Shown piece by piece: positions 1,372-64,000 of a stretch of DNA of 64,000 bases. The DNA comes from Brevundimonas sp. LM2. GTDB taxonomy: Bacteria > Pseudomonadota > Alphaproteobacteria > Caulobacterales > Caulobacteraceae. The notes beneath the pieces were generated by a model that saw only the letters and a list, made by a program, of their open reading frames with translations, ran no database searches and was not told the DNA's origin. Position numbers and translations under genes: made by a program. The DNA is taken from the NCBI RefSeq assembly GCF_002002865.1, contig NZ_CP019508.1, positions 620,001-684,000 on the forward strand, given 5' to 3'. Within the stretch, counting starts at the first letter, position 1. The number at the start of each line of letters is the position of its first letter.

Positions 1372-1547
1372 GGCGAGGCGGACTCTCCGCCGCCTCGCCG
1401 AACGTCGATTCAAGATGTGGTTTCTGTGGACGGAGTGAGTCGCACATCTTGCGTCCCTTAAGGGCTAGTTTACGATTAGTTGTGGCTCGGGAGACCCGAT
1501 CGGGGATTTAGGCGCCACATCTTGAATCGCTCGACCCGGAGGGTGTC
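1372..1547 (+). promoter_or_regulatory. gcrA upstream region with inverted repeat, CtrA-like site and GANTC cluster
   Basis: A GC-rich hairpin (1372-1381 with 1390-1399) may end the upstream gene, although no T tract follows. A perfect 14-bp inverted repeat lies at 1407-1420 (GATTCAAGATGTGG) and 1515-1528, with a third nine-base copy of the core, CACATCTTG, at 1443-1451. TTAA-N7-TTTA at 1458-1472 is one mismatch from the CtrA consensus TTAA-N7-TTAA. Four GANTC sites fall at 1381, 1407, 1437 and 1524. The ribosome-binding site GGAGGG is at 1538-1543. In Caulobacter, gcrA is known to be controlled by CtrA and DnaA. Their action here is inferred, and I saw no good DnaA box. Confidence 0.6.
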
Positions 1548-2063
1548 ATGACTGCAGGCTGGACCGAAGATCGTGTCGGCGCGCTGAAGAAGCTGTGGCT
1601 GGAAGGCCAATCGGCCTCGCAGATCGCCAAACAGCTGGGTGGCGGCGTCACCCGCAACGCCGTCATCGGCAAGGTGCACCGCCTCGGCCTGTCGGGTCGC
1701 GCGACCCCTTCCCAGCCGGCCCGCACCTCCACCTTCCGGCCCGCGCGCACGCGCACCACGCCCCCGGCCCAGCCGTCCGCCCCGCGCCGCATCGAGGCCG
1801 TCCAGCCCGCGCCGCGGCCCGTCGTGACCACGCCCAGCCTGCCGGCCGTGGCCGAGATGGCCGGCACGGCGACAGTAATGACCCTGGGGGCTCACATGTG
1901 CAAATGGCCGATCGGCGACCCGTCCTCGACCGAGTTCAGCTTCTGCGGCCGCCGCGCCTCGGAGGGCGTCTATTGCCAGGAACACGCCCGCGTCGCCTAC
2001 CAGCCGCAGATGAAACGTGGCGGCAAGGAAGAACTGGCCCGCAGCCTGCGGCGTTACATCTAA
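1548..2063 (+). CDS. gcrA: GcrA family cell-cycle transcriptional regulator
   Basis: GcrA is the S-phase cell-cycle regulator of Caulobacterales. It binds sigma-70 RNA polymerase and acts at promoters carrying CcrM-methylated GANTC sites. The N-terminus (WTEDRVGALKKLWLEG, then SASQIAKQLGG and TRNAVIGKVHRLGL, residues 4-55) is the characteristic GcrA helix-turn-helix. A Pro/Ala/Arg-rich linker follows (about 56-100). The C-terminal part (about 110-171) includes CKWPIGDP and FCGRRASEGVYCQEHARVAY. The length of 171 aa matches the family. The start is an ATG spaced correctly behind GGAGGG. The upstream region carries likely cell-cycle control sites, described separately. Confidence 0.96.
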   Translation: MTAGWTEDRVGALKKLWLEGQSASQIAKQLGGGVTRNAVIGKVHRLGLSGRATPSQPARTSTFRPARTRTTPPAQPSAPRRIEAVQPAPRPVVTTPSLPAVAEMAGTATVMTLGAHMCKWPIGDPSSTEFSFCGRRASEGVYCQEHARVAYQPQMKRGGKEELARSLRRYI

Positions 2064-63516: not shown

Positions 63517-63586
63517 CCTCCCCGTCGCGTAGCGATGGGGAGGTGGCGCGGCGCGCTTGCGCCGTGACGGAGGGGGCGACCGGGTG
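63517..63586. repeat. Left repeat unit: two hairpins plus left copy of a 23-bp inverted repeat
   Basis: Hairpin 1 spans 63517-63543 (CCTCCCC...GGGGAGG with an inner TCGC/GCGA stem). Hairpin 2 spans 63549-63564 (CGGCGC-GCTT-GCGCCG). The 23-bp segment 63564-63586 follows and is the exact reverse complement of 63962-63984. The unit lies between the nrdB stop and the DUF559 stop and may also end nrdB transcription. Confidence 0.85.
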
Positions 63587-63604
63587 TCGGAAGCAGGCCC
63601 CTCA

Positions 63605-63964
63605 TCACCCCCGCAACCTCGCCTCCGCCTCCCGCCATATGAACTCCAGCACCCCATCCAACTCGTCCTTCACCGCCCGGGCGGTAATTCGAATGACGCG
63701 GATCGCCCTGCCGCCCAGCCAGACCGTTCGTCTTTCGTCGTGGGCGGCCCGCTCGTCGGTCGCGTGCGACGCCCCGTCCACCTCCACGGCCAGCTTCGCC
63801 GCCGCGCAGTAGAAGTCGAGGATATAGGGTCCGATCGGATGCTGTTTGCGAAAGCCCAGGCCCCCCAGTCTGTTGCCCTTGAGGCGGATCCACAGCCTGG
63901 CCTCGGGCGGGGTGAGCCTGCGCCTGAAACTGCGCGCGCGTTCGTAGCTTTTCCCGTCCGCCAC
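63605..63964 (-). CDS. DUF559 domain endonuclease-like protein
   Basis: A 119-aa protein of the DUF559 family, related in fold to Vsr-type very-short-patch-repair and restriction endonucleases. Residues include LTPPEARLWIRLKGNRLGGLGFRKQHPIGPYILDFYCAAAKLAVEVDG (D51, E61 and D63 region of the nuclease core) and the HATDERAAHDERRTVWLGGRAIRVIRI segment. The GTG start at 63964 lies at the inner edge of the right inverted repeat, which also provides a GGAGGGGG ribosome-binding site. The whole gene is enclosed by the 23-bp inverted repeat, suggesting that gene and repeat travel together. Confidence 0.85.
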   Translation of the reverse strand: MADGKSYERARSFRRRLTPPEARLWIRLKGNRLGGLGFRKQHPIGPYILDFYCAAAKLAVEVDGASHATDERAAHDERRTVWLGGRAIRVIRITARAVKDELDGVLEFIWREAEARLRG

Positions 63965-63984
63965 CCGGTCGCCCCCTCCGTCAC
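63962..63984 (-). repeat. Right copy of the 23-bp inverted repeat around the DUF559 gene
   Basis: Perfect reverse complement of 63564-63586. On the minus strand it contains GTGACGGAGG at its outer end and CGACCGGGTG at its inner end; the final GTG is the DUF559 start codon and the GGAGGGGG within it is correctly spaced as a ribosome-binding site. The window ends 16 bp further on, so any outer hairpin cannot be seen. Confidence 0.9.
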
Positions 63985-64000
63985 GGCCCTGAAGGAGGGC

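Follow-up and report, generated by a model that had tools for sequence, protein, structure and literature searches.

A DUF559 nuclease gene between inverted triplex motifs in Brevundimonas sp. LM2: a candidate RAYT/REPIN-like element

A 64,000-nt stretch of the Brevundimonas sp. LM2 genome (NZ_CP019508.1, positions 620,001 to 684,000; hereafter the window) contains, at its right-hand end, a single DUF559 (PF04480) gene between inverted copies of a hairpin-bearing repeat. In design, this repeat corresponds to the intrastrand triplex motif (TM; formerly the potential intrastrand triplex, PIT, of Escherichia coli), and TMs accompany DUF559 genes across the class and beyond. The locus is probably a compact element akin to systems of REP-associated transposases (RAYTs), the nucleases linked to repetitive extragenic palindromes (REPs), and to REP doublets forming hairpins (REPINs). 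In such an element, the TM would be the cognate DNA of a Vsr-like nuclease, which would recognise the folded repeat and cut it, copies then being made by host repair or replication.

An earlier note on this DNA described a single DUF559 gene enclosed by two inverted 23-mers, and both sequence comparison and the PF04480 match bear this out (Table 1). The 23-mers, which are exact reverse complements, extend into arms of 31 nt with 97% identity and 365 nt between them in a repeat search of the window. The whole inverted repeat is imperfect, spans ~85 nt and gives a local left/right score of 101; this score had a median of 19 and a maximum of 31 at 1254 sliding positions in the window (300 to 63000), and a maximum of 30 at 46 open reading frames (ORFs). 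The 23-mer is not itself the repeat unit, as the note had supposed, and forms the tail end of a hairpin–hairpin–tail repeat. Two hairpins do adjoin the left copy, as described; they are not restricted to it, as the right copy has them too, one straddling the window end and the other lying beyond. Both hairpin stems differ between the left and right repeats, yet pairing is kept, as seen in locus L006, whose sequence continues beyond the window. The right copy carries a GTG at its inner end and a Shine–Dalgarno-like GGAGGGGG, as the note stated, while the status of this GTG as the true start is uncertain because the frame continues open upstream of it.

Table 1. Features of the DUF559 locus (window coordinates).
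Feature	Position	Strand	Remarks
Left triplex motif	63517..63575	+	No other triplex motif within the 64 kb passes the strict rule; two DNA hairpins predicted
Left arm, near-perfect inverted repeat	63561..63591	+	Contains exact 23-mer 63564-63586
DUF559 nuclease gene	63605..63964	-	119 aa from GTG start; PF04480
Right arm, near-perfect inverted repeat	63957..63987	-	Contains exact 23-mer 63962-63984
Shine–Dalgarno-like GGAGGGGG	63972..63979	-	Provided by right-repeat tail; read from sequence, putative function
Right triplex motif, part inside window	63973..64000	-	Whole motif 63973-64034, strict-rule match in locus L006, past window end

The DUF559 protein matches PF04480 with an E-value of 1.8e-27 (95.8 bits, cut-off 20.6) and also matches MTES_1575, below that profile's cut-off; it has no match to the Y1/HUH transposase domain (PF01797). 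Among the families on the VIA list, to which the fold comparison was limited, its predicted fold is of the Vsr/I-Bth0305I type, that of a single-domain PD-(D/E)XK nuclease. Residues E21, D50, E61, D63 and H67 are invariant across 65 DUF559 sequences, and are presumably catalytic, by analogy with the active-site roles of such residues in Vsr.

A TM is a hairpin with one pyrimidine and one purine arm, together with a tail that repeats the purine arm in mirror order, either A or T being allowed for an arm A. The left repeat runs in the order CCTCCCC (pyrimidine arm), inner stem-loop, GGGGAGG (purine arm), TGGC, second hairpin, GAC and GGAGGGG; this tail is the mirror of the purine arm and is directed toward the gene. 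Two search rules were applied, a first rule (arms of at least 8 nt, loop up to 10) and a strict rule (exact 7-nt arms, exact mirror tail, loop up to 20). The first failed on the window's own repeats save for one spurious match; the strict rule recovered both, each fitting the design at 7/7 positions with 7-nt arms and a 13-nt loop. The one strict TM in the window and the one added by the neighbouring locus both adjoin the DUF559 gene.

Mirrored arms and tails, with T permitted at an arm A, include the purine arm/tail pairs GGGGAGAAGG/GGATGAGGGG, GGGAGAGGG/GGGTGAGGG and GGGGAAGGG/GGGATGGGG. A mirror tail with T allowed at A is the purine-motif third-strand code. Across 31 distinct asymmetric arms, the mirror fitted better than a direct repeat in 25, tied in 5 and was worse in 1, and across 93 repeats it was better in 62, tied in 23 and worse in 8; a direct-repeat tail was accordingly rejected as the poorer fit. 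A repeat's own tail fitted its arm better than the mean of foreign tails in 162 of 207 cases. Of 1726 cells with G in the arm, 1657 had G in the tail, and of 467 with A in the arm, 436 had either A (229 cells) or T (207 cells); this tabulation is partly circular, as only tails with a fit of at least 75% entered it. Judged by its sequence, the window repeat is closer to an intrastrand triplex motif than to a classical REP, the type to which the left copy had earlier been likened: it has a mirror tail, and no GTAG tag was seen. The name boxC is one that we take to denote these same TM/PIT motifs.

The association extends well beyond this locus. The DUF559 loci compared were the best-scoring matches per genome, not a random sample, and were drawn from relatives, the class, the phylum, a named set and a plasmid set (ten loci, one per genus, from 30 of 45 matching records). 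Omitted from the counts were L155, which contains a run of N, and two loci at contig ends, L045 and L148; the resulting 178 loci represent at most 175 because L142/L093, L143/L094 and L163/L098 are each one place fetched twice. Under the first rule, 170/178 loci have a TM no more than 220 bp away on one side or both (relatives 30/33, class 29/30, phylum 25/27, named 78/78, plasmid 8/10), L006 being counted there for the wrong reason because its first-rule match is spurious. TMs were present on both sides in 21, 16, 13, 66 and 2 loci of these sets, respectively. The repeat is thus not found equally near all genes, as the corresponding first-rule counts were 0/30 at GIY-YIG loci, 0/30 at cold-shock loci and 14/525 at shifted positions. 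The strict rule gave 158/178 on at least one side (relatives 30, class 27, phylum 23, named 70, plasmid 8), against 7/525 shifted positions and 0/12 loci of the Y1 transposase family (Y1_Tnp, PF01797).

Inverted hairpin repeats, too, frequently lie on either side of DUF559 genes, in the class and beyond. An inverted-repeat score of at least 40 was reached by 16/30 class loci (0/754 shifted positions), 13/27 phylum loci (3/702), 53/78 named loci from genome_contigs with L155 dropped (1/2334) and 5/10 plasmid-collection loci. Named loci at this level include those of Sphingomonas sanguinis (L156), Bradyrhizobium sp. AS23.2 (L189) and Dyella sp. RRB7 (L208), and plasmid-collection loci include those of Novosphingobium sp. 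THN1 (L231) and Pseudanabaena sp. ABRG5-3 (L226), the last scoring 126 yet failing the strict TM rule. At plasmid locus L228, a shifted control itself reaches 52. Titles of metagenome-assembled genomes extend DUF559 loci to Chloroflexi, Nitrospirae and others, and are possibly misassigned. A separate oddity is L120, where the DUF559 gene lies between inverted repeats of 116 nt (1365-1480 and 1847-1962; 93%), far longer than usual.

DUF559 and TMs also occur together at the level of whole genomes. A TM pattern, CCYYCYCCCN{2,8}GGGRGRRGGN{1,26}GGRWGRGGG, was counted in 190 genomes of the class (one or few per family), with overlapping matches counted separately and statistics calculated without phylogenetic correction; DUF559 was scored as present at E<=1e-10, and 15 genomes with weaker matches only were counted as without it. 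The pattern gave 1498 matches in 53 of the 190 genomes, versus 11 matches for the reversed pattern. At least two TMs were found in 37/49 genomes with DUF559 and in 7/141 without (p 5.7e-22, kinship ignored), and when the genomes were divided into five strata by size, every stratum showed an excess in the same direction (p at most 0.0055).

At non-syntenic loci, sequence comparison indicates that the flavour of the repeat tracks the DUF559 clade. Protein identity correlated with flank similarity among 26 loci of the genus (r 0.52, 0/999 permutations, 314 pairs, 11 syntenic pairs dropped) and weakly among 134 wider loci (r 0.23, 0/999 permutations, 29 pairs dropped). Within the 3.56-Mb genome of the window, each of the six DUF559 loci has, by eye, its own repeat flavour. 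The left/right scores of these loci (L001-L006) are 33, 79, 28, 18, 109 and 101, so that three are strong by score; two of the weak ones yet have similar hairpin repeats on both sides by eye. The remaining locus, L004, has no upstream repeat, and its DUF559 domain is fused to an apparent recQ: positions 1501-1809 (-) (genome C1:744094-744402) encode DUF559 in frame at the apparent recQ end, followed by an inward-facing hairpin-repeat pair (by eye).

Repeats also occur in this genome without a DUF559 gene. The 17-base end TGACGGAGGGGGCGACC has three exact occurrences, two of them at the window element, and four with one mismatch, versus none for its reversed control; the 12-base core occurs 12 times (control 1). 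Gene-free, inward-facing repeat pairs, tens of bases apart, were seen by eye at L014, L015, L020, L021 and L022, and the extended end CGACCGGGT of the window element recurs at L009, L010 and L021 (by eye). In L023 (~1460-2050; genome C1:3558151-3558654), three TGACGGAGGGGG repeats lie close together inside an apparent lipoyl-domain gene.

Gene and repeat are also absent together. The window element sits between nrdB and a gene for a Gfo/Idh-like oxidoreductase (names from reading the sequences), and its position is not constant among relatives. In the best 30 nrdB loci of 61 genomes, searched for 1500 nt downstream (718 nt for L060), DUF559 and strict TMs are both absent from 29/29 relatives read, and both are present in the window's genome. 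Two of these empty sites (G061 and G030) retain the flanking genes, the oxidoreductase frame starting within ~25 nt of the nrdB stop as compared with 576 nt in the window's genome. The intergenic parts are too diverged to place the element ends for a target-site duplication comparison.

A second site, glyQ-glyS, was compared in the best 30 loci of 57. Seven carry DUF559, each with at least two TMs, which form a flanking inverted pair in five and lie on one side only in L294 and L311. Among the 23/30 loci without DUF559, L318 has TMs in the gap and L305 has one further on, inside glyS; the overlapping TGATG junction of glyQ and glyS is kept in 10. One old insertion with later losses may account for this distribution, because the gene-bearing sites look related by eye. 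By eye, the DUF559 frames of L292 and L302 continue across the right-hand repeat, which would thus be read as protein, and finish in the TGATG at the start of glyS. In L300, L304 and L313, the gap seems to hold other small genes, which lack triplex motifs.

The parallel with REP-associated transposases drawn in the earlier note gains support well beyond the locus from flanked DUF559 genes, gene-free repeats and empty nrdB sites. In the proposed mechanism, the TM would be the cognate DNA of DUF559, with tails mostly aimed at the gene. When single-stranded during replication, transcription or repair, the repeat would form its hairpin, and the purine tail would fold onto the stem as a third strand. 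DUF559 may then read the folded shape, with a clade-specific sequence preference, and nick or cut it. Host repair or replication would copy a single repeat, an inverted pair or a pair enclosing the gene into new intergenic sites; gene-free pairs would represent the non-autonomous form.

Several observations weigh against this proposal. TMs are present on both sides in only 118/178 loci (97 under the strict rule), many loci having just one; 7/178 are TM-free even under the loosest rule, which has no control of its own, and 28/356 flanks have outward tails only. Three of the six DUF559 loci in the window's own genome score only 33, 28 and 18. Fewer than two pattern matches occur in 12/49 genomes with DUF559, and at least two in 7/141 without. 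E. coli ycjD, considered as a textbook case, proved unsupported, with a TM-like hairpin at its 3′ end only, no inverted pair and a score of 18. In Holder et al. 2015 (PMC4666352), dimethyl sulfate footprinting gave no stable triplex in vivo, and PMC12907096 presents a repair role for one DUF559 protein, Caulobacter VsrA.

TM pairs without DUF559, together with the seven genomes that have at least two TMs and were counted as DUF559-free, could also mean that another enzyme (a RAYT or an IS200/IS605 Y1 transposase) or replication slippage spreads the motifs, with DUF559 merely riding between them. Such a passenger role is unlikely, as it does not account for a repeat flavour that tracks the DUF559 clade. 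A Y1 transposase was rejected as the general mobiliser: no Y1_Tnp (PF01797) match was found in the window's genome, at least two TMs occur in 11/44 genomes with Y1_Tnp versus 33/146 without (p 0.84), and none of the 12 Y1_Tnp loci is TM-flanked, evidence that covers the Y1 family only. It is equally improbable that the repeats serve as RNA or DNA control (terminator, attenuator or Shine–Dalgarno cover), holding a toxic nuclease at a low level in an inherited, immobile unit. The right repeat does provide the Shine–Dalgarno-like sequence and start, and upstream inward tails end a median of 36.5 nt before the DUF559 domain (130 flanks); regulation nevertheless leaves unexplained why inverted pairs occur at other places, why both sides carry the same repeat and why gene and repeats are jointly absent at nrdB and glyQ-glyS.

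The Vsr fold, and the DUF559-protein-dependent SOS response reported for Caulobacter in PMC12907096, would suit a chromosomally encoded nuclease acting in mismatch or triplex repair, as proposed for VsrA, with the repeats of its own gene as targets or autoregulatory sites. That role seems quite improbable for the window gene in view of the patchy presence of DUF559 (49/190 genomes), the several divergent copies per genome (six in that of the window), repeats that are matched to clade and a location beside nrdB and an oxidoreductase gene, not a methyltransferase. Short G-rich repeats might match by accident; chance or an assembly artefact is, however, refuted by the sliding, ORF, shifted and other-family controls and by the reversed pattern (11 versus 1498 matches in 190 genomes), and retains almost no probability.

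Compared with known systems, the RAYT/REP-like element proposed here resembles the RAYT/REPtron arrangement of GTAG REPs and REPINs: inverted palindromic repeats enclose one nuclease gene, inverted pairs also occur elsewhere without a gene, and the repeat family matches the enzyme. It differs in having a nuclease of predicted Vsr-like fold with no Y1/HUH match, and a repeat with a mirror tail and no GTAG tag seen. Membership of RAYT/REPIN fails because the enzyme differs, although the layout is the same. TM_ECO has the same pyrimidine hairpin arm, purine arm and mirror purine tail, and Holder et al. 2015 (PMC4666352) describe its triplex in vitro by circular dichroism and nuclear magnetic resonance and report that they detected no mobility activity around the E. 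coli copies; the window variant differs in its 7-nt arms, long inner stem, second hairpin and regular DUF559 neighbour. The structure of the homing endonuclease I-Bth0305I (3r3p) shows its catalytic domain, one part of a larger protein, and the DUF559 locus has no intron or defined target; empty sites, as for a homing endonuclease, do exist at nrdB and glyQ-glyS. Unlike the Vsr endonuclease (1vsr, 1cw0), the window gene has no adjoining cytosine methyltransferase. PMC12907096 describes Caulobacter VsrA (CCNA_02930) as a DUF559 protein whose gene is likewise unlinked to its methyltransferase, and puts it forward as a mismatch repair enzyme.

Both components, the repeat class and the protein family, have been described before; searches of open-licence PubMed Central full text found no paper connecting DUF559 with triplex motifs (preprints and most subscription journals lie outside this corpus). 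Holder et al. 2015 and Di Nocera et al. 2013 leave the question of spread open, and a nuclease that usually lies beside the triplex motif makes the question of Holder et al. directly testable in standard laboratory strains. The link could also explain why triplex motifs mark unstable sites. If the proposal holds, DUF559, a domain of unknown function, would gain a function, that of an enzyme recognising folded triplex hairpins and spreading copies of them through genomes, and folded, mirror-coded DNA would have a natural case as a possible recognised object.

The CGTC-tagged REPs of Di Nocera et al. 2013 (PMC3733652) are palindromic repeats that come mainly from Alphaproteobacteria and have no known transposase; their AT-starting stem and CCA end are missing from the window repeat. 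A CGTC REP reading was rejected because the window repeat differs in its stems and ends, and because only 1/178 DUF559 loci (L231) has GTCAT hairpins on both sides. GTCAT-tagged hairpins at genes for GIY-YIG nucleases resemble the CGTC/TGTC REPs, which are reported to have no transposase. A broader scheme, tentative and by our estimate not quite an even bet, is that each class of palindromic repeat has its own solitary nuclease, with HUH RAYTs for GTAG REPs (known), DUF559 for triplex motifs and GIY-YIG for CGTC/TGTC REPs, in convergence on a REPtron/REPIN lifestyle.

The loci of single-domain GIY-YIG nucleases (L232-L261) are themselves often flanked by inverted repeats, with scores of at least 34 in 16/30 and at least 40 in 14/30 (shifted 4/655). 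GTCAT-tagged hairpins lie on both sides in 8/30 (0/112 shifted) and on at least one side in 12/30 (11/112 shifted), and GAGCTTGTCGAA-type repeats were also seen there by eye.
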